From Ferruginibacter sp. (GTDB taxonomy: Bacteria > Bacteroidota > Bacteroidia > Chitinophagales > Chitinophagaceae): a DNA stretch of 11,179 nt. This document shows positions 2,002 to 11,179 of this stretch, piece by piece. The DNA lies in assembly GCA_025362765.1 (NCBI GenBank), contig JANYFI010000096.1, positions 1 to 11,179 on the forward strand. Reading direction: 5' to 3'. Below the pieces are notes generated by a model. It saw only the letters and a list, made by a program, of their open reading frames with translations. It did no database searches and was not told the DNA's origin. Position numbers and translations under genes: made by a program. Every line of letters starts with the position of its first letter. The first letter of the stretch is position 1.

Positions 2002-3639
2002 TTAATAATCATTAACGCGGTTGAGGTCTTTTTTTGCGATCCATCCCTTACTGATTTTCCCTCTTGCATCCAAAATGGTTACATAAATAAATGCCCCTTT
2101 TTCATCTGTGGCGGTAATGATTTCGTCAGAAGGAATGATGTACACATTTGTCCTGGTCCCTTCATCAGGCGACTCATGAAAAAAAGCCCTGCTAATCACT
2201 TTAAATTCCTTACCTGTGGCTGCACTGGTATTATACCTGGTATTGGCGACATCTGTTTCAGCTGACGGTTGGCGTGGTTTACTCACCGTATTTAAAGATG
2301 CGGAAATGGGTTTCCTCCATTTTATTTTTACTTTTTTTGATAACTTATCTTCTTGTGCCAAAGAAGAATCCAACGGCTTGCTCAGCGTTTGAAGCGGTGC
2401 AACAATAGTATCTTTTATACCAGTCTTAGGTGGCCGCAACAATGAATCGTAGGTTGTAAATCCTGCCAGGCCCACCGCTACAAACAGTACTAAAAAAAAC
2501 AATCCTTTCGAAATGCCGTTCTTTGTTGCTTTTGACATACCATAACTTTCAGCGTACTGGTATTGCTCAATTGTTTTTTCTTTTAATGCCACTTCATTTT
2601 GCAACTGGTCTATCAGGTTGTTTTTTTCTACAGACTGTAATTCCAATTGTTCAACCAGTTTTTTTAACTGCAGTTCATTTGTGCGGGCAATCGTTAACTG
2701 TTCGGTTGACACGTTCACCATTTTATGTTCTTCAGCGATCATACCAGCATGAATGAATTCCTGTAATTCCGTTCCGTTTTTAAATCGCTTTGAAGGCTCT
2801 TTTTCAAGACACCTGCTAATCATATTGATTAGCCAGTCGGGCACCTGCATTTCCCTTTCTTTTTTATCGTATCCCCAACTGGAAGGCATGGTTTCTTTTC
2901 TCAGTGTTAGTAAATCAGGTGGGGCATTTTCCATATGTGCCAGCATCACAACATTGCGCCCCATTTCCCCTTTACCATTTAATGGAAAGGGAACTGTACC
3001 TGCAAGCAATTCAAACAAAATAATTCCGAGGCTGTAAATATCTGTTTCAAAATACATCACGCCCATATTTTGTTCCGGCGCCATAAATTCTATCGCCCCG
3101 GCATGGCGAATACTGGTACGACGTTGTTCATCCGACATAATGGATAACCCAAAATCAAGTAAAATATAATTGCCGGTGCGCTGGTTAAATTTTACGTTAT
3201 TACTTTTTATATCGCCGTGCTTAATATCTGCCCGGTGACAATGCGCCAATGCATTGGATAAATGGTCTGCTACTTTAATGGCTTCTTTAATAGTAAAAAC
3301 AGTATCGTAAGGCGGTGTAAGCAATTCGCCCAAATCAGGCCCTTCAATATACTCCATTTCAATGTAGGGAAGATTGCCGGAAGTGGTAATACCTGAAGCT
3401 ACAATACTCACTACATTGGGGTTAGGAGATTCGTTTACTTTTTTTAATTTCTGCACTTCATTTTGAAAAGAAATAAAATTTTTATCCTCGTCTGTTTCGC
3501 TGGCGATTGGAGTGGGCAATATTTTGATGGCGGTAATAATTTCGCCGCTTCTTCTTGCTTTATACACAGAGCCCTGCCCTCCTGATTTTACTGCACCCAG
3601 GTTTTCCAATCCTTCTGTTATTGTAAATACTTTCGCCAT
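2002..3639 (-). CDS. Membrane-anchored Hanks-type Ser/Thr protein kinase with extracytoplasmic SH3-like domain
   Basis: This 545-residue protein has an N-terminal kinase domain (about 10-300). Visible motifs are the glycine loop SGGQGSVYKA (19-28), the ATP-anchoring Lys39 in TAIKIL, Glu61 as likely alpha-C glutamate, the catalytic loop HGDIKSNN (Asp143, Asn148), DFG (162-164), APE (187-189) and DIYSLG (200-205). The usual HRD is HGD, so it is a non-RD kinase. Thr175 and Ser176 in the activation segment are candidate autophosphorylation sites. A heptad-like coiled coil follows (about 315-362), then one membrane helix (about 379-396), a Ser/Pro/Lys-rich linker, and a C-terminal SH3b-like beta domain (about 478-540) ending GWIAKKDLN. 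The topology matches PknB-type kinases but without PASTA repeats. The start at 3639 was chosen because it lies 4 nt after the FHA stop and begins MAKVFTITE; an upstream in-frame ATG at 3687 would overlap the FHA gene by 44 bp and adds residues unlike a kinase. It presumably phosphorylates cell-wall proteins encoded nearby (inference). Confidence 0.95.
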   Translation of the reverse strand: MAKVFTITEGLENLGAVKSGGQGSVYKARRSGEIITAIKILPTPIASETDEDKNFISFQNEVQKLKKVNESPNPNVVSIVASGITTSGNLPYIEMEYIEGPDLGELLTPPYDTVFTIKEAIKVADHLSNALAHCHRADIKHGDIKSNNVKFNQRTGNYILLDFGLSIMSDEQRRTSIRHAGAIEFMAPEQNMGVMYFETDIYSLGIILFELLAGTVPFPLNGKGEMGRNVVMLAHMENAPPDLLTLRKETMPSSWGYDKKEREMQVPDWLINMISRCLEKEPSKRFKNGTELQEFIHAGMIAEEHKMVNVSTEQLTIARTNELQLKKLVEQLELQSVEKNNLIDQLQNEVALKEKTIEQYQYAESYGMSKATKNGISKGLFFLVLFVAVGLAGFTTYDSLLRPPKTGIKDTIVAPLQTLSKPLDSSLAQEDKLSKKVKIKWRKPISASLNTVSKPRQPSAETDVANTRYNTSAATGKEFKVISRAFFHESPDEGTRTNVYIIPSDEIITATDEKGAFIYVTILDARGKISKGWIAKKDLNRVNDY

Positions 3640-3643
3640 AATA

Positions 3644-4417
3644 TTATTCGCCGCCTGTAGAGGTAAATTCCAATACAGCTTTATCACCTAAAATCACCTG
3701 GTCTCCTTCCTGCAGGCGATGCCCCACTTCGATAGCCTGCATTTTTATAAACCCACCATCTGCCGTATGTATCTTCATTTTGTTATTGGGGGGAATGCCG
3801 CCCTCATCCGCAAAAATTAAAAACGAACCACTGGAGGGTTCCCATTCAATATGCGCATGCTGGCGGCTTACAGAACGATTAATATCCATTGATTCCGTTG
3901 CCGTAAAGGCAATCATATTTTTTCGCACGAAGCCGCCGTTTAACTGCACTTTGGCTTCGCGGCCAATATTTATTTTTTCTTTGGATGGTTCCAGCACGTA
4001 TATTTCTTTTTCCGCATTGCCCCCTAAAATCCTGATATAGGCACGGGCTTTTTTATTGACGATACCCGCCTTTCTGGTGGAGATAAAGAGGGCCGTTTTT
4101 ATTTCTGCTGATACATAAGAATGATCAGGATATTTATCAGTGAATACAATTTCATATTTCCAGGATGATGGTAACTGAATGGCGTAATCATCCGCAATTT
4201 TTTGTACTACGTCCCTAAACTTGTCTGGGTTCGCAGCATGTACCACCGATTCATATAGGTATCGTTCAGATTCTGTACAATTGACGTAGAGATAGATGCC
4301 ATTGATATTGGCACCTTCACCGCCCTCTGCGAGCTGTAGTTTTTCTTTAATAAACTGTAATAAAATATTCCTTATTTTTTTTACATCCGCCGCAGGTTCT
4401 TTAAATAGTTTAAACAT
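3644..4417 (-). CDS. FHA-domain (phosphothreonine-reader) protein
   Basis: This 257-residue soluble protein has no signal peptide or membrane segment. The N-terminal module (about 1-125) is alpha/beta, with helices at 10-28 and 65-80 and the strand region SSWKYEIVFTDKYPD; it resembles the first part of the FhaA-like protein at 10248-11179. The C-terminal FHA domain (about 125-254) shows the expected ligand residues: Gly152-Arg153 in INIGRE, Ser184/His187 in SVSRQHAHI (S-x-x-H), and Asn211/Asn212 in the loop that normally carries Asn-Gly. The final strands read GDQVILGDKAVLEF. FHA domains bind phosphothreonine peptides. With the kinase ATG only 4 nt after its TAA, the two are almost certainly co-translated, so this protein is a plausible substrate or adaptor of the kinase (inference). 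No Shine-Dalgarno sequence precedes the ATG, only an A-rich stretch, as is usual in Bacteroidota. The 251 bp before it contain repeats and might hold a secondary promoter, though I cannot identify one. Confidence 0.93.
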   Translation of the reverse strand: MFKLFKEPAADVKKIRNILLQFIKEKLQLAEGGEGANINGIYLYVNCTESERYLYESVVHAANPDKFRDVVQKIADDYAIQLPSSWKYEIVFTDKYPDHSYVSAEIKTALFISTRKAGIVNKKARAYIRILGGNAEKEIYVLEPSKEKINIGREAKVQLNGGFVRKNMIAFTATESMDINRSVSRQHAHIEWEPSSGSFLIFADEGGIPPNNKMKIHTADGGFIKMQAIEVGHRLQEGDQVILGDKAVLEFTSTGGE

Positions 4418-4460
4418 GGTTGGTTATTTTTTTTATAAATAATTTTGACCTCGCCCCCAA

Positions 4461-4481
4461 CCCCTCTCCAAAGGAAAGGGG
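4461..4481. repeat. Palindromic intergenic repeat (CCCCTCTCC-AAA-GGAAAGGGG)
   Basis: Two 9-nt arms flank an AAA loop. One position is mismatched on the plus strand (C/A), but in the minus-strand transcript it becomes a G-U wobble, so the operon RNA could form a 9-bp hairpin with a UUU loop. No U-tract follows in the transcription direction, so it is not a classical terminator. Very similar CCCCTCTCCAAAGGAGAGGGG palindromes are scattered between genes in many Bacteroidota; this is general recollection and not a search result. It may stabilise or process the transcript between the SEDS-PBP gene and the FHA-kinase pair. Confidence 0.6.
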
Positions 4482-4550
4482 AGTTTGATTCGTTGTCTTT
4501 CGTTTCTTTTCCTAATTTCCGTTTCCCGTGCAATTGAATTCTTAGCCTGT

Positions 4551-4615
4551 TTAATCCATTCTAAATACACCGAAAATTTAATCCGTTATCATCTATATAA
4601 TCCGTATCATCCGTG
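4551..4615. repeat. Short degenerate TAATCC / ATCCGT reiterations
   Basis: TAATCC occurs at 4552, 4579 and 4598, and ATCCG recurs at 4609, giving an irregular series (TAATCCATT, TAATCCGTTATC, TAATCCGTATC, ATCCGTG). Spacing is uneven (27, 19 and about 11 nt), so it is not a clean tandem array or a CRISPR. It lies in the 251-bp gap between the SEDS-PBP stop and the downstream FHA gene, next to the palindrome at 4461-4481, and looks like dispersed repeat DNA. A regulatory role is possible but not shown. Confidence 0.35.
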
Positions 4616-4668
4616 TTCTATCATTCGGTCTGATCTTCATGAGTAATTGCCTGTGCCACCTGAATGGG

Positions 4669-7600
4669 TTACGGCAATAGCTGATCGTTATCTTCTTTCT
4701 CCTTTTTCGGTGCTTCAAAACTTTTTATATAATTTCTTTCCAGTAATAATGGAATGATATGGCTGCCCGCTAATTGCACCGCATCACTAGAGCCCTTCGC
4801 GCCTTCAATTCTTATACAAACAACGATATGTCCCGCACCTTCGGCTTTTGGTGCAAAAAACACATACCATCCGTCATTGATTGTTTCACCCTTATAAATT
4901 CTTTCCGGTGTACCAGTTTTACCGGCAACAAATATTCCAAGTTTACCCCTTTTAGAAGCACTCTGCTTTTTCATATAGCCTGTCATACGGCTGGCGTATA
5001 AAGAATCATTTACAATGGAAATACCTGGCTTACCGGCAACCGCTTTTCCGTTGATATCCATCACATATCTTTCCGGCATCATTACGCCATGGTTAGCTAT
5101 GGCCGACGCAACCCTGGCTATTGCCGCAGGTGTGGCTACCAGTTCGCCTTGTCCCCATGCCATACCGGAAACGCCCATCGCTCTGGTTCGCCGGATATTA
5201 TTTGGATTGTATTTTTTCAGACTGGTGAATTCAGTCTTTCTCCAAAGCTCCCGCCACTTTTCCTGCTGCACTGCATTGTTGGTTTCATTGTCAAAATAAT
5301 AGCCGCCGACCCCATGCAAAAACATGCCCGATTGCATGTACAAAGTGGCCATTTGTTCCTGCAGTTTTTCTTCGTTGGCGAGCCGGATGAAAAATGAATT
5401 GTTTGATTTCACTATTGCGTTTTCAATATTGATCAATCCAGCTTCATCCGGTTCGGGGCCGGTAATCCGGATCAAATCTTTCGGATAAATCCGGATCATT
5501 TTTTTTGATGCAGCATCCCCCAGCTTATTAAATGCCGCCAATGCAGTAACAAGTTTTGCAGTAGAGCCAGGTTGTGTAGCATGTGTAAACCCAATATCAG
5601 TATTTACATTCCAGCCAGGCAAATGATTCAATTCACTTTCGCCCAGGTTAAGGCGATCCCAGTCATTCAATGGTGCCTGTGGCCACATTGCCGAAGCAAG
5701 TACATCGCCGGTATTGTCTTCCATCACTACTACTGACACCCTTTTTCTTTTCACGCTGTCATCATTTTGCACCGCCAGTTCAATTTTAGTTTGTAAAGCT
5801 GCATCCATGGTGAGTTTTACATCCCGGTTACGTTTTTTAAATGCTTCCACTGCGCTGCTGTTAATACCTGCCAGTAACAAATCAGTCAGCGCACTGTAAT
5901 CTCTTTTTGTAACAGTAATCTGGGTCTCGCTTGCAGGTGAAAATTTTTCAGCTTTGTAAGCGCTGGCGCTTACCTGGAATTTAATCAACGGCGCAGGAAA
6001 TCCGCGGAGTTCCGATGCATGTTCATACTCCGCAAAATAGCCGTTATTGCTACCATCAAACACATGCGTATTGGCATCCCCTGTCCAGAAAAACATGTGT
6101 TCGCCAAAAGGATAATAGCGGTCAGCCCTTTTATAAGCGAGTGAGGCAATATCACTGGCCGGTATGCCGTAGGCAGTCAGGGAATCCTTTTCCTTCTGCA
6201 CCAGCCTGGCATCACTCGTTGCCAATATTTTTCCATTGCGGTCAACTATATTCCCTGCCTGCAGGCGATTCATTAAAATATTAATCCTGGGATTATAGCT
6301 GAATAACCTGGCTCCGCTGCGATCCGCTACCAGCGCCGGTTCTACAATCCATTTCCTATTGTTAACTGTAAAGCCTGATACATTCACCGCCAGCAACACA
6401 ATTGCCACACAGGCTGCCAGCAATGCGGGTATTAAATTTTTATCCTGCCGTTGCATAATGTATTTCATTTGCACTTTTGATCCGTTAATTTTTGACGCCG
6501 ACAACAAGAAACCCGCAGCAAGCATGCTGCACAATAATGAAGTTCCGCCATAACTGGTAAAGGGCAATGCCACGCCTGACAAAGGCAATGCACCGGTGGA
6601 GCCTCCCGCAATCAATAAAAATTGTACGAAGGTTCCAATGCCAATACCGGCACATAAATAAAATAAAAATGGTGTACCTGTTTGCCGACCGATAATGATG
6701 GAGCGGTGCAGGTAGATTAAAAATAAAATGAACACACAGGTTATTCCTGCCCAGCCAAACTCTTCACCCATTGCCGGTAATATCATATCCGTATGAGCTT
6801 CTGGTATCGTCTTGGCAAAACCTTCGCCTGCTCCCTGGCCGGTAATGCCACCACTTGAAATGGCCCAAATACCATTGGCAACCTGGTCGCCGCCAAATAC
6901 CTGGTTGTTCCAGGGATCGGTCCAAATCGCTTTTCTGTCCACCAGTCTTTGCATTGGCCCGGGAATCAATTTAGCCAGCGTATGTATTTTATCAAGTAAT
7001 AAAAAACCACTGACCACTACAAGGGCCATGGTTGCAGACTCACTCAATTTCTTTTTTGTTATCAGCATATACAAGGCCATCACCACCACCGCAACGCCTG
7101 TTGCCAGCCAAACATTTTTAATCAACCAAACACTTAGCACATAGACCACCAGCGCCGCCACTACTTCCATAAAATCGCCCCGGCAAAAAGAAAATAAAAT
7201 GATAAACGTGAAGCAACAAACAATTGCGGGACCCAGATCGCCCAGTAGTAAAAACATTAAAATAGTAGTGAGAATGGCAACCAACGCAAAAACAAAAAAA
7301 TACAACCGCTTATTCCACGAAGGATATTGTGAAATAAAATTTTCATTCTTTGCAAAAAAACCGGCGAGAAATAATATGATAAGGTACTTTACAATTTCGC
7401 TGGGCTGAAAACCAAACAAGTTTACTTTAACACCACTGCCCTGCGGGCCTGTACCAAACAAAATAGTTAAAATTAACAACCCGATTGCACCCAGTGCCCA
7501 GGGCCAGCCGTTGGCCGCGTTCGGGTTGTTTTTAAAAATAAACAGGCGGAATAAACCGGAGTCGGCGGTAAACTTTTTAAGGTTGACAAATTGAAGCATA

Positions 7601-8766
7601 AGTATACCAGCCACACCAATACAAAAATAAGTGAAGGTACTTTTTGCCAGGAAGCGGTCACGTAATGGATCCTGTAAACTAAACAGTGTAATCAATGAAA
7701 GCCCCATCAGGATCATGATAACGGGTAATATTAATTGATCACTTCCCGGAGAACGAAAAGTAAAAACTATGTGCAGCAACAAAAAGGAAAAGAAAAAAGT
7801 GGTCACTATTATCCAATACCATCTGCTCACTTCCTCAGGCGACCGTACAATAAATGCCTTTTCTTTTTTTAAAGTACTAAAGTCTTTTGCTGAAAAAAGT
7901 TTTAGTAAATGCGGCGACTGAACAAAATTAATCGCCATGTTGCCCTGTAATTTTTCGCTACCCTTTAGATGCCCAAACTCGTATCCTGGTTGTAGTGGAA
8001 TCAATTCATAGGCTTTATTTTCCGGCAATCCTGAAAAGCTATATTTGCCTGCTTCGTCTGTACGGGCATACGCATAAAAGGAAAACAGTTGCGGCTGACC
8101 TGCAGAATCCAACATATACACTTTGCGCAGACCATCTTTGTAACTAACTATGGTGTTCCCGTCGCCTTGCTGATAATCAGTATTGGCCGAATCCTGGGGC
8201 ACTAATAATTTAAGTCTTACCAATGCGCCTTGAACAGGCTGAGCCTGCAGGTTTTTTATAGTGCCTGAAATAGCAACTGCTCCCAGCGCCACGTTATTGA
8301 TTGCAGCTACCTGCAGTGGTTTCATTTTTTCCTTGTCATATGTAATTGAATCAGCTTCAGAAAAGCCCAATAAATTACGGGAAAGTGCCACACGGTTTCT
8401 AAATACTTTGCCGCCTTTGGCAAAGGCTTCATCAGCATTTACAAAATATGGCTGTTTATTCAACTCTCCCGCATTGTCGATTGTTGCAGCAGGAACTTTA
8501 GCGCTTTTAATGGTGGCCGCAATAAAATCAATGTCTTTTTGATCTTCAAAATACAATCCTTTTTTCAACAGGTTTTTTATATTGCCTGCATCATTGTTGG
8601 TGTTCAGGTTCACCATTGTACCGTTTTCCAAACGGGTGTTCACTTCTGTAAAATCCCGTTGCAAAACAGTAAACATTTTCCAAAAAAGCAAACCCATAAC
8701 AATGGCTATCAACAAAAGCGCAAGCCTTTCCAATCTTCTATTTGGTTCTGTTGCACGATACGTCAT
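4669..8766 (-). CDS. SEDS glycosyltransferase (RodA/FtsW family) fused to class B penicillin-binding protein transpeptidase
   Basis: This single 1365-residue frame joins the two enzymes that make septal or side-wall peptidoglycan. Order: a short cytoplasmic tail, membrane helix (about 13-29), an outer region (about 35-310) with a CNA-B/carboxypeptidase-regulatory-like beta domain (about 166-262; TDEAGKYSFSGLPENKAYEL), a SEDS region (about 315-757) with 12-13 predicted helices, a PBP anchor helix (about 776-797), then the PBP. The SEDS part carries the signature PEAHTDMILPAMGEEFGWAG with the conserved Asp660, equivalent to the essential RodA/FtsW aspartate. The PBP part has the N-terminal mark NIVDRNGKILA (about 839-849) and all three active-site motifs: STAK (Ser1068, Lys1071), SNN (1121-1123) and KTGT (1283-1286). 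Both activities therefore look intact: polymerising lipid II and crosslinking the stem peptides at the outer face of the inner membrane; the PBP half should bind beta-lactams. Its ATG directly abuts the phosphatase TAA. Separate RodA and PbpA together total roughly 900-950 residues, so the N-terminal outer region explains most of the excess. Confidence 0.97.
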   Translation of the reverse strand: MTYRATEPNRRLERLALLLIAIVMGLLFWKMFTVLQRDFTEVNTRLENGTMVNLNTNNDAGNIKNLLKKGLYFEDQKDIDFIAATIKSAKVPAATIDNAGELNKQPYFVNADEAFAKGGKVFRNRVALSRNLLGFSEADSITYDKEKMKPLQVAAINNVALGAVAISGTIKNLQAQPVQGALVRLKLLVPQDSANTDYQQGDGNTIVSYKDGLRKVYMLDSAGQPQLFSFYAYARTDEAGKYSFSGLPENKAYELIPLQPGYEFGHLKGSEKLQGNMAINFVQSPHLLKLFSAKDFSTLKKEKAFIVRSPEEVSRWYWIIVTTFFFSFLLLHIVFTFRSPGSDQLILPVIMILMGLSLITLFSLQDPLRDRFLAKSTFTYFCIGVAGILMLQFVNLKKFTADSGLFRLFIFKNNPNAANGWPWALGAIGLLILTILFGTGPQGSGVKVNLFGFQPSEIVKYLIILFLAGFFAKNENFISQYPSWNKRLYFFVFALVAILTTILMFLLLGDLGPAIVCCFTFIILFSFCRGDFMEVVAALVVYVLSVWLIKNVWLATGVAVVVMALYMLITKKKLSESATMALVVVSGFLLLDKIHTLAKLIPGPMQRLVDRKAIWTDPWNNQVFGGDQVANGIWAISSGGITGQGAGEGFAKTIPEAHTDMILPAMGEEFGWAGITCVFILFLIYLHRSIIIGRQTGTPFLFYLCAGIGIGTFVQFLLIAGGSTGALPLSGVALPFTSYGGTSLLCSMLAAGFLLSASKINGSKVQMKYIMQRQDKNLIPALLAACVAIVLLAVNVSGFTVNNRKWIVEPALVADRSGARLFSYNPRINILMNRLQAGNIVDRNGKILATSDARLVQKEKDSLTAYGIPASDIASLAYKRADRYYPFGEHMFFWTGDANTHVFDGSNNGYFAEYEHASELRGFPAPLIKFQVSASAYKAEKFSPASETQITVTKRDYSALTDLLLAGINSSAVEAFKKRNRDVKLTMDAALQTKIELAVQNDDSVKRKRVSVVVMEDNTGDVLASAMWPQAPLNDWDRLNLGESELNHLPGWNVNTDIGFTHATQPGSTAKLVTALAAFNKLGDAASKKMIRIYPKDLIRITGPEPDEAGLINIENAIVKSNNSFFIRLANEEKLQEQMATLYMQSGMFLHGVGGYYFDNETNNAVQQEKWRELWRKTEFTSLKKYNPNNIRRTRAMGVSGMAWGQGELVATPAAIARVASAIANHGVMMPERYVMDINGKAVAGKPGISIVNDSLYASRMTGYMKKQSASKRGKLGIFVAGKTGTPERIYKGETINDGWYVFFAPKAEGAGHIVVCIRIEGAKGSSDAVQLAGSHIIPLLLERNYIKSFEAPKKEKEDNDQLLP

Positions 8767-10155
8767 TTATAACTTTTTTAAGTTTAATACAGGTATAAAT
8801 ATGGAATCCTTAAATTTTCCCGACAGCGTGGTATCGGGTATCACAGGCTCGTATTGCACAGGTACCCGGCAGTTTATAAAGCGTACATTCTTTAATACCA
8901 CATTGTTTTTTTGCAACAAAATGGCCGCATCAAAATTTTTAAAAATGATGCTATCCAGCACGATATGTTTTGCTGATTTGCTAATGATAAACGCAGCACC
9001 TTTATAAGTTGAATCACTGCTAATTATAATACCATTGCCCTGCAGGTAAAAACTATCCTTACTAATAACCACAGGTGCTGATAAATTGACTACGGCTGCC
9101 AAGGGTTTGAAGGAATATTTTTTTGTGGAATCATTCACTGCCCCGATAAAAGTAGCTACATTTTCATTTATTGGCTTTATTTCGATTGTTGCATTGATTG
9201 CTATTTTCGGCTTAGCAGGACTTGGCTTATTAAACAACATCATTGATACAAGCCCCAATGATAACAATAACAATAAAACAATAAAACTGCGGCTTCGCCT
9301 GGTTGACCGCACCTTTTTTTCAGGTGGCTTGTCTTTTATCAAACGCTCATTGCATGGTTTACCTGACTTTTTCTCCACCGGTTTTAATGCTACTTTAGGT
9401 GCAGGCTCATTGGTATTTTGCACCAGCACAGCGGTAATATTGTCATTTCCACCGGCTTTATTTGCTGCCTCAACCAGTTCCCTGGCCTTTTCAGTAAGCG
9501 TGTTTTTCTGTAACAGTATTGCTGTGATGCTGACCGAAGAAATCATATCCGACAATCCATCACTGCAAACCAATATCATATCACCGGGAAGAAAAGGCGA
9601 CTCACCAGTTTCGATAAAATCATTGATGGTTTCTATGGCTGCTTCAAATCCAAGCGCTTTGGTAATTTCGTTGCGTCTTGGGTGGCTCATGGCGTCTTCC
9701 TCCGACAAACGGCCGGACTCTTCCAAAAAACCCACCACCGAATGATCTTTTGATAATTTCACCAGCGAATGATCTCTCAGCAGGTACAATCTTGTATCGC
9801 CTACATGGGCGTAATATAATTTATTGTGTTTAATATCGGCCACGGCACAGGTAAGCACACAGGCCATCTGGTCATTTTTATTGTCTTTGCTTTTTTCTTC
9901 CGCTATTTTTTTGTTGGCTGCAATCAACGCTTCCTCAAGCGCCTTAATAATATCTTCCGGCAAATTTTTTAACCGCTCTATTATAACAGATCGTGTGATA
10001 GCGGCAGCAACTTCGCCACCGCTGTAACCGCCCACGCCGTCAATCACGCAGGCCACTACAAATTCCTTTTTAGAAAATTCGCAGGCAATAAACGTGTCTT
10101 CGTTGTGATCCCGCCGTTTGCCCTTGTCTGTTATGCCAACAAAATATTCAACCAT
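8767..10155 (-). CDS. Membrane-anchored PP2C-family Ser/Thr phosphatase with beta-helix-like outer domain
   Basis: This 462-residue protein has a complete N-terminal PP2C (PPM) catalytic domain (about 1-247). Metal-binding and structural motifs are RRDHNED (14-20), VIDGVGGYSGGE (37-48), HVGDTRLY (117-124), KLSKDHS (133-139), EITKALG (163-169), CSDGLSDM (197-204) and GGNDNITAV (235-243). A basic proline-containing linker leads to one membrane helix (about 290-307). The outer part (about 310-462) has short repeating hydrophobic strands such as FYLQGNGIIIS, HIVLDSIIFKNF and NVVLKNVRFINC, typical of a small right-handed beta-helix. PP2C enzymes reverse Hanks-kinase phosphorylation, so this is the natural antagonist of the kinase at 2002-3639. 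Its topology matches actinobacterial PstP, which also has one membrane helix and an outer domain. Its start overlaps the microprotein gene by 8 nt and its TAA touches the next ATG, so translation is coupled on both sides. Confidence 0.95.
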   Translation of the reverse strand: MVEYFVGITDKGKRRDHNEDTFIACEFSKKEFVVACVIDGVGGYSGGEVAAAITRSVIIERLKNLPEDIIKALEEALIAANKKIAEEKSKDNKNDQMACVLTCAVADIKHNKLYYAHVGDTRLYLLRDHSLVKLSKDHSVVGFLEESGRLSEEDAMSHPRRNEITKALGFEAAIETINDFIETGESPFLPGDMILVCSDGLSDMISSVSITAILLQKNTLTEKARELVEAANKAGGNDNITAVLVQNTNEPAPKVALKPVEKKSGKPCNERLIKDKPPEKKVRSTRRSRSFIVLLLLLSLGLVSMMLFNKPSPAKPKIAINATIEIKPINENVATFIGAVNDSTKKYSFKPLAAVVNLSAPVVISKDSFYLQGNGIIISSDSTYKGAAFIISKSAKHIVLDSIIFKNFDAAILLQKNNVVLKNVRFINCRVPVQYEPVIPDTTLSGKFKDSIFIPVLNLKKL

Positions 10156-10246
10156 TTTTGCTGTGAGTTTGTTTTATTTCAGTAAAATTCGCGATCAGTA
10201 AAATGATGCTGATCAGCAGTAATGCAATTGCCAGTACTCTGTCCAT
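10148..10246 (-). CDS. 32-residue single-pass membrane microprotein
   Basis: The frame runs ATG (10246) to TGA (10148-10150) and encodes 32 residues: MDRV, a hydrophobic stretch of about 16 residues (LAIALLLISIILLIAN), then a polar, mildly basic tail ending HSKNG. It starts 1 nt after the TGA of the FhaA-like gene (TGATATG) and its stop overlaps the phosphatase ATG by 8 nt. It therefore exactly bridges the 92-nt gap between two conserved operon genes, with the coupling geometry of its neighbours. No Shine-Dalgarno motif precedes it, but none precedes the other genes either. I do not recognise a family. Small one-helix proteins in cell-wall operons often act as partners of membrane enzymes (general knowledge); here that is only a guess. 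The alternative is that it is a translated spacer that keeps ribosomes moving to the phosphatase start, with no function for the peptide itself. Confidence 0.6.
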   Translation of the reverse strand: MDRVLAIALLLISIILLIANFTEIKQTHSKNG

Positions 10247-10247
10247 A

Positions 10248-11179
10248 TCAAACTTTAAAAATGTTAATGGTTACAATGCCATTTAATACAATCCTCGAAT
10301 TCACCGGTAGCTCCGACCAGCCGGGTGTTGACGGATCGCTGTTGGTAATTTCTATTTCGTTGATAATTGTTTTTTCGCCGAAAGAACTCAGGAAAAATTT
10401 GTCCGTATTTTTATCAAATCGAATTAATAAATGCGGCGTGGATACCCATTCTGAAGGAATTTTAAATACGCCTTCCTGGTTCGAATTTTCTTCACTTCCC
10501 GACACCGTAACTTGTTCCTGCCTCATAAAATATTCCAGCTTTTTGCCGGCGTATTGTTTATCAGGTAACGTTATTTCGAACCGGGCAAAATATTTTGGTG
10601 TATGGACCGGTCCCGGCTCGTCCACCACCAAACTTTGGTAGTAAGGAATTTCATAATAGCCATCACTGTAAAAAGTGAAGTCTTTCAGCAGTTCATCTGC
10701 AATATCAAATGTTTGCGCAATGCCTGTTTGTCTTGGAATAAATGTTACCCGAAGGCTATCTTCTTTTTGCTTCGGTGCCGAATTGCCGGGTAATAGTTTT
10801 CCAATAAAGCTTTTATCGCCGGGGCCATAATCAGGATGCGATACAAAACGAAACACCCACTTGTTGGAAGAAGGTGTTATTTTTTTACCCTGCTGTTTGT
10901 GTTGTTGCAGTATGGTATAAAATGACTTAACAGATTCCTGGATAATAAAACCAAAAATGCCTTTGTTGTTATCCATGAATTTATTGTAGTCGGGCGGGCT
11001 AAAGCAAATGATGTACTCATGATAAAATATTACCCTGCCCGCAAACGATAATTCAGCAATGGATTCCTGAAATTTTTTGATAATATACTTGTGCACCGTA
11101 TCGGGTGAAAGCGTTGCCATTGCAGCATATTCAGTTTCTTTTTTAAGAAACCAGTTTTGTACGCCGATGCGTTGCCAGA
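10248..11179 (-). CDS. FhaA-like protein with degenerate C-terminal FHA domain, 5' end beyond window
   Basis: The frame ends at TGA 10248-10250 and is still open at the window edge. The 19 codons upstream of the first ATG (11120) read like protein (QNWFLKKETEYAA), and no stop or start signal separates them, so the gene probably begins outside. If the 11120 ATG is used, it has 290 residues. In that numbering the N-terminal module (about 8-110; GRVIFYHEYIICFSPPDYNKF, then a helix, then SSNKWVFRFVSHPDYG) resembles the FhaA N-terminal domain (DUF3662-like) of actinobacteria. The C-terminal part (about 175-290) follows the FHA strand pattern: EQVTVSGSEEN where Ile-Gly-Arg is expected, STPHLLIRF with S-x-x-H kept (Ser227, His230), and a final NSRIVLNGIVTINI. 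The phosphate-binding Arg of Gly-Arg appears lost, so phosphothreonine binding may be weak or absent. It precedes the phosphatase in the operon, as fhaA/fhaB do in Mycobacterium. Family assignment is by pattern and less certain than the gene itself. Confidence 0.8.
   Translation of the reverse strand, partial: WQRIGVQNWFLKKETEYAAMATLSPDTVHKYIIKKFQESIAELSFAGRVIFYHEYIICFSPPDYNKFMDNNKGIFGFIIQESVKSFYTILQQHKQQGKKITPSSNKWVFRFVSHPDYGPGDKSFIGKLLPGNSAPKQKEDSLRVTFIPRQTGIAQTFDIADELLKDFTFYSDGYYEIPYYQSLVVDEPGPVHTPKYFARFEITLPDKQYAGKKLEYFMRQEQVTVSGSEENSNQEGVFKIPSEWVSTPHLLIRFDKNTDKFFLSSFGEKTIINEIEITNSDPSTPGWSELPVNSRIVLNGIVTINIFKV

Follow-up and report, generated by a model that had tools for sequence, protein, structure and literature searches.

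Does a cell-wall synthase gene that lies among genes for a Ser/Thr kinase, a phosphatase and FHA proteins encode a synthase that can be switched by phosphorylation, and how is such a locus related to the actinobacterial fhaA-fhaB-pstP-rodA-pbpA-pknA-pknB locus? These questions are raised by the window analysed here, the whole 11,179 bases of contig C312 from a Ferruginibacter metagenome-assembled genome (MAG) estimated to be 69% complete. All on the minus strand, it encodes a first FHA protein (FHA1), a 32-amino-acid (aa) membrane open reading frame (ORF), a PP2C phosphatase, a 1365-aa fusion of a SEDS protein with a class B penicillin-binding protein (PBP), a second FHA protein (FHA2) and a Hanks-type kinase, which we refer to together as the cassette. 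We consider it fairly probable that the cassette is a self-contained accessory peptidoglycan-synthase unit under the control of its linked kinase, PP2C and FHA proteins. The features of the window are as follows.

10248..11177, minus strand: FHA1, FhaA-like, with an FhaA_N-like N-domain and a degenerate FHA domain; 5' end lost at the contig end
10148..10246, minus strand: microprotein, 32 aa, with a single transmembrane (TM) segment and the motif [HN]Fx[DES][IVL]K; overlaps the PP2C start by 8 nucleotides (nt)
8767..10155, minus strand: PP2C phosphatase, 462 aa, with a catalytic domain, one TM segment (at about residue 287) and a C-terminal tail; PP2C_2, 61.5 bits
4669..8766, minus strand: SEDS-class B PBP fusion, 1365 aa, identified from Pfam and motifs
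3644..4417, minus strand: FHA2, 257 aa, with an N-region of about 150 aa and an FHA domain with a GR...SRQHA site; Pfam FHA, 20.1 bits, slightly below the 20.7-bit cut-off
2002..3639, minus strand: Hanks-type Ser/Thr kinase, 545 aa, with one TM segment (at about residue 374); Pkinase, 119.7 bits
3-1529, minus strand: S9 peptidase, downstream of the cassette kinase

Layout and conservation of the cassette

The first-pass annotation had described five genes on one strand in this order, and indeed the minus strand carries them all, with Pfam domains in the PP2C, the fusion and the kinase. Its spacings of 1, -8, 0 and 4 nt are also correct, but the first two match the junctions with FHA1 and with PP2C of the microprotein, a 32-aa ORF that it omitted; the others are PP2C/fusion (0) and FHA2/kinase (4). 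The last value holds if the kinase starts at the ATG at 3639, which we prefer to the mechanically assigned GTG at 3687, and the gap between the fusion and FHA2 is 251 nt. Due to the contig end the first residues of FHA1 are missing (its ATG-started ORF covers 10248-11120), and an upstream kinase, if any, would be out of sight. The supposed Bacteroidota origin was borne out by close relatives of the fusion, which are named Ferruginibacter, Ginsengibacter and Segetibacter.

We examined the best 80 loci of our genome collection (at least 80 exist, and two of the 80 are copies within Pedobacter panaciterrae), which come from Ferruginibacter, Segetibacter, Flavisolibacter, Parafilimonas, Mucilaginibacter, Pedobacter, Hufsiella and Flavipsychrobacter as well as from MAGs. 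FHA1-PP2C-fusion-FHA2 was found on one strand in 74 of the 80, a linkage that excludes chance grouping, and the remaining six reach a contig end. At least one related kinase lies alongside in 71 of the 74 intact blocks, either downstream of FHA2 or upstream of FHA1. The arrangement is thus not confined to this genome but recurs across genera. Among 15 regions from genomes that carry a fusion, the full order FHA1-PP2C-fusion-FHA2-kinase was present in eight (L040-L043, L045, L052-L054). Two kinases are found between PP2C and the fusion in L044, as in a plasmid-borne relative (L136), and the six others keep subsets, such as FHA1-PP2C-fusion-FHA2 in L050 and FHA1-fusion-FHA2 in three f18 regions. 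No gene recurs in most of the flanks of these 15 regions; the three f18 regions share flanks, and other matches are scattered, with one gene cluster found in four regions and others in two.

The SEDS-PBP fusion protein

Within a single ORF, Pfam detected FTSW_RODA_SPOVE at residues 421-759 (149.4 bits) and Transpeptidase at 1011-1326 (80.4 bits), in agreement with the RodA/FtsW-PBP fusion claimed initially. The protein begins with an N-terminal TM segment and a domain of approximately 280 aa with a weak CarboxypepD_reg match, followed by the multi-TM SEDS domain and then the PBP. The SEDS domain has the HTD motif, whose conserved Asp has a functional role in SEDS proteins, and all three motifs of a class B PBP are present in the window fusion (SxxK, SxN and KTG at residues 1068, 1121 and 1283, invariant in 10 of 10). 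By regular-expression search of the 73 full-length fusions among the 80 loci, HTD, SxxK and K[TS]G were each found in 73 and SxN in 66. We therefore predict that the fusion should work as a single-chain peptidoglycan synthase. Searching with the fusion yielded 1360 proteins at E 1e-3 (8000 scored candidates), and 119 of the 120 of those listed were at least 64% identical.

Two variant fusions were also encountered. L051:6262-10416 (G179) encodes a triple PP2C-SEDS-PBP fusion in a single ORF of 1384 aa. At 5165-9088, L047 (G131:C121) encodes a very divergent SEDS-PBP fusion, the second of its genome, the other being on C87; 4 kb upstream of the divergent one there is a short kinase ORF.

The FHA proteins, phosphatase and kinase

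FHA1 (10248-11120) had no Pfam match. When its N-domain was predicted alone, however, the top match among 350,542 PDB chains was the N-terminal domain of Rv0020c (FhaA), with an E-value of 4.8e-3, and Pfam FhaA_N was above cut-off in two of the three f18 FHA1 relatives scanned. These results give moderate support to an FhaA-like fold of the predicted N-domain, and the original description of FHA1 as FhaA-like can be retained. The fold search with full-length FHA1 had only its FHA part among the matches listed. Likewise, comparison of the FHA1 and FHA2 N-region profiles with FhaA gave either a match limited to the FHA part or nothing convincing, and against PDB sequences the FHA1 profile found only weak FHA matches (best E 0.031) and the FHA2 profile no useful match. 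The GR...SRxHA site is retained in FHA2 but not in FHA1, and Pfam FHA was matched in 42 of 53 members of the FHA2 alignment at E 0.01. As for the N-region of FHA2, one relative (L050:10935-12305) has an N-terminal HEPN_Swt1 domain (90 bits), and L272:1854-3554 contains a match slightly below cut-off; this region may be HEPN-like.

The catalytic motifs of both PP2C and the kinase were located in the window sequences, their roles being known from the respective families. Pfam detected no PASTA domain in the kinase, which scored 141.6 against the cut-off of 450 of the PASTA-kinase model and thus does not resemble the PASTA kinase PknB in this respect; nor did Pfam match an SH3-like domain that we had suspected by eye at the kinase C-terminus. 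PP2C scored 208.8 against the Stp1 model cut-off of 230. Its C-terminal tail had no Pfam match above cut-off; past the TM segment, a right-handed beta-helix model matches weakly (15.7 bits, short of the cut-off), and this part is a possible envelope sensor.

A conserved microprotein between FHA1 and PP2C

In 78 of the 89 loci that have adjacent FHA1 and PP2C genes we found an ORF of 28-42 aa that encodes a hydrophobic helix and contains the motif [HN]Fx[DES][IVL]K, and at least one of the 11 motif-negative loci (L096) has such an ORF with one motif residue changed. To allow for the choice of these ORFs by their motif, we also estimated selection from the 14 codons preceding it. The pN/pS ratio was 0.16 over 107 pairs with the motif included and 0.18 over 59 pairs without it, and the entropies of the three codon positions in the 14 codons were 1.27, 0.55 and 1.74. 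By these sequence measures the microprotein is evolving under selection as a protein. It matches no Pfam or NCBIfam family above cut-off, the Pfam model MrpF_PhaF scoring 16.3 against a cut-off of 23.3 bits and NCBIfam giving no match.

Relationship to the actinobacterial locus

We examined two examples of the actinobacterial locus, L137 from Tsukamurella, whose PP2C ORF is unlisted, and L203 from Actinomyces. Like the cassette, it has an FhaA-type protein, a PP2C, a RodA of the same clade, a class B PBP, an FHA protein and a kinase on one strand, and, according to two published accounts, its phosphatase can be the sole one of the genome, as in the cassette (PMC11898655, PMC6554272). In the cassette, however, SEDS and PBP are fused and follow an additional N-terminal domain, FHA2 and FhaB are unlike in size and N-region, the kinases have no detectable PASTA domain, and there is a microprotein besides. 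The comparison of FHA2 with FhaB is one of features: FHA2 has an FHA domain, a length of 257 aa and an N-region that is its own. Moreover, the cassette is accessory, patchy and once plasmid-borne, whereas the actinobacterial locus is housekeeping.

In the SEDS tree, 26 fusion SEDS domains, four actinobacterial RodA proteins and an FHA-linked SEDS protein of Monoglobus were split from 26 ordinary SEDS proteins with support of 100/99, and the split persisted at 100/99 after removal of the fast-evolving Bacteroidota fusions. Approximately unbiased (AU) tests gave p 0.0001 when actinobacterial RodA was forced together with ordinary RodA, and p 0.021 when the fusions were. The SEDS domain thus falls in the clade of the locus-linked RodA, and its kinship to actinobacterial RodA is supported at the sequence level, while an origin by duplication of a native Bacteroidota RodA is disfavoured by the second test. 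Long-branch attraction was considered and rejected as the cause of the grouping, which was unchanged both without the fast fusions and with six rows added (three actinobacterial RodA, the Monoglobus SEDS, Bacillus SpoVE and a Staphylococcus equorum SEDS). For this tree 7 near-duplicates of 64 rows were dropped; L146, L148, L154, L157 and a split Arthrobacter rodA were never in the sets, and removal of the fast fusions also took out six non-fusion rows, including the truncated rodA of the window genome.

The other domains neither join the actinobacterial proteins nor exclude them. Joining the fusion PBP to PbpA cost 1.5-1.6 log-likelihood units (lnL; p 0.18-0.19), and three approaches in all left the PBP neither joined to PbpA nor excluded from it. 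Two of the PBP sets lacked 8 rows and P0287 (no SxxK match), one of them also PBP_L181, and L176, L190, L196 and L200 never figured in them. The best PP2C tree kept the cassette phosphatase apart from PstP (86/83), with joining costing 1.9 lnL (AU p 0.37); 9 of the 25 non-cassette PP2C loci gave no match at 1e-5 and were left out, and the 16 others include several cases of one gene taken from two overlapping loci. The best kinase tree, with 12 non-cassette kinases chosen from many, again kept the catalytic domain apart, and joining it to PknA/B gave an AU p of 0.16. P0168, whose end is frameshifted, is in one alignment and was left out of the search alignment.

An explanation that these trees might favour is convergence, in which a Bacteroidota or Acidobacteriota lineage assembled FHA, PP2C, kinase and SEDS-PBP genes independently, the likeness to Actinobacteria being mere analogy. 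Co-locating a synthase with its regulators would be useful, the best PBP, PP2C and kinase trees do not join PbpA, PstP and PknA/B, FHA2 is unlike FhaB as described above, and the gene order differs in that the kinase is sometimes upstream. Yet the same three trees do not reject kinship, and the SEDS tree with its AU tests, the FhaA N-domain as top PDB fold and the FhaA_N matches in f18 relatives all speak against it, so we regard convergence as unlikely. The actinobacterial link is partly homologous: the resemblance to the Mycobacterium locus noted in the first-pass annotation holds for the SEDS domain and, with moderate support, for the FHA1 N-domain, and is neither confirmed nor contradicted by the PBP, PP2C and kinase trees.

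Our literature search, with partial coverage that left out most subscription journals, turned up no paper describing the cassette. Fusions built in the same way have been named from Rhodothermales, Thermoanaerobaculia, Blastocatellia, Bryobacteraceae and further Acidobacteriota; the Rhodothermales and Acidobacteriota fusions named by NCBI are labelled 'FtsW/RodA/SpoVE family cell cycle protein', share the domain order and form one clade with the Bacteroidota fusions, but the acidobacterial ones have a shorter stretch ahead of the SEDS domain. A clostridial Monoglobus cluster (L205) has an FHA gene directly ahead of a SEDS and PBP pair, with the SEDS in the fusion clade; its genes are separate, however, and no PP2C or kinase is annotated within the 17 kb shown. 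The canonical RodA-PBP2 and FtsW-FtsI pairs share the SEDS and class B transpeptidase motifs with the fusion, but are two proteins with a SEDS of another clade. Finally, PrkC-PrpC and Stk1-Stp1, PASTA-kinase/PP2C pairs that are tied to the wall, share with the cassette the pairing of kinase and PP2C, the PP2C score for Stp1 given above being a further likeness; the differences are that no PASTA domain was found in the cassette kinase and that its score is far below the PASTA-kinase cut-off.

Distribution and accessory status

Across the phylum, at least 12 of 296 genomes (two candidates scored per genome) were found to have a fusion-length ORF, as were 6 of 60 genomes in the family and 5 of 59 in the genus, the window genome included each time. 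Each of the 14 near-complete carriers that we examined has two or more SEDS genes besides the fusion, and the window genome has an ordinary mreD-PBP2-rodA stretch on C557, so that the fusion is not the mre-linked RodA/PBP2 of the elongasome. Because of these other synthase genes and the patchy distribution in the genus, the cassette is accessory. The 'cell-wall module' proposed initially is accordingly a real, conserved SEDS-PBP locus, but not the main wall locus.

In four of the five genus carriers, including the 69%-complete window MAG, PP2C_2 and Pkinase each match a single time, on the fusion contig in both cases; in the fifth they match two and three times, respectively. Above cut-off, 43 of the 54 non-carriers of the genus lack a PP2C_2 match and 40 a Pkinase match. 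A 137-kb plasmid of Spirosoma oryzicola (NZ_CP089545, L136) carries FHA1-PP2C-kinase-kinase-fusion-FHA2, followed by genes for a response regulator and then a histidine kinase. Because of this plasmid and the patchy distribution, transfer of the cassette within the phylum is likely.

Estimated genome size was larger in genus carriers than in non-carriers (median 5.8 vs 3.2 Mb; n=5 vs 54; one-sided Mann-Whitney p 0.0003, a comparison that ignores kinship). Such a difference would suit a versatile way of life in soil and with it a second alternative, namely that the fusion is a backup against beta-lactams or wall damage, a synthase of low penicillin affinity that the kinase and PP2C would turn on when their tails sense damage outside the cell. 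The best solved-structure matches of the fusion PBP are indeed low-affinity class B PBPs. Nevertheless, it scored far below the cut-offs of the low-affinity NCBIfam models and higher with the pbp2_mrdA model, the low-affinity models fit the fusion less well than they fit the ordinary PBP2 of that genome, and no mecA-type N-terminal domain was found with Pfam. We consider this backup role improbable.

The patchy and once plasmid-borne distribution could also suggest a conflict or programmed-damage system with the synthase as effector of an FHA-PP2C-kinase switch. In one locus (L272, G131:C44, 466-8017) an FHA2-like, FHA1-like (FhaA_N) and PP2C trio lies beside two caspase-domain (Peptidase_C14) proteins in place of a synthase, of which there is none on the contig, and the same signalling trio may thus be employed with other effectors. 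We nonetheless find a conflict function very hard to credit for the cassette, whose synthase, kinase and phosphatase retain their catalytic motifs and whose five proteins have no toxin-like domain in Pfam. Lastly, that the fusion is the lineage's housekeeping RodA-PBP2, which its two domains and catalytic motifs would allow, deserves next to no credence, being refuted for the carriers examined by their other SEDS genes and ordinary PBP2-rodA, with no fusion found in 54 of the 59 genus genomes.

A proposed model of synthase control by phosphorylation

We thus return to an accessory wall synthase under phosphorylation control, which we infer from the gene content and motifs. In the simplest model, the fusion, a SEDS glycosyltransferase covalently tied to a class B transpeptidase, would add to the ordinary FtsW-FtsI and RodA-PBP2 a further synthase, one that both polymerises and cross-links lipid II. 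The phosphorylation state of the cassette proteins would be set jointly by the transmembrane PP2C and one or more transmembrane kinases; because one TM segment is predicted in each, their tails are presumably outside the cytoplasm, where they could respond to an envelope signal. The kinase would phosphorylate FHA1, the microprotein or loops of the fusion, and FHA2 would bind the phosphothreonine. The resulting complex would then activate or place the synthase until PP2C reversed the phosphorylation. The phosphorylation state would be read by FHA2, with its canonical phosphothreonine site, and by FHA1, an FhaA-type scaffold with a degenerate site, and the microprotein probably serves as a small subunit in regulation or assembly. 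In mycobacteria, FhaA affects the localisation of the wall-synthesis machinery, according to a published account (PMC11898655). The enzymatic activity, tail topology, phosphorylation targets and sensed signal are all predictions of the model. More tentatively, the cassette could be a mobile, plug-in synthase with a phospho-switch, which brings an extra fused enzyme, a new microprotein and often the whole Ser/Thr system of the genome, and which descends from an ancestral FHA-SEDS-PBP module shared with the actinobacterial growth-control locus.

The locus suggests that some wall synthesis in Bacteroidota is switchable by protein phosphorylation; if true, Ser/Thr control of wall synthesis would not be confined to Gram-positives. 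Phosphorylation control of RodA-PbpA has been studied in Actinobacteria, where some components of the locus are essential and difficult to study separately, whereas the related module described here is accessory, compact and naturally fused. Pedobacter and Mucilaginibacter are among the cultured genera that have it, so that clean single deletions could be made. It would also provide structural work with a SEDS-PBP enzyme that is naturally a single chain, with a conserved microprotein added. In Pedobacter panaciterrae (NZ_LGEL01000011), two cassette copies (L098 and L101) lie in opposite orientation and are 99.96% alike over 21,957 bases, with FHA1 reading as two ORFs in one of them; this double cassette is either a duplication or an assembly artefact.

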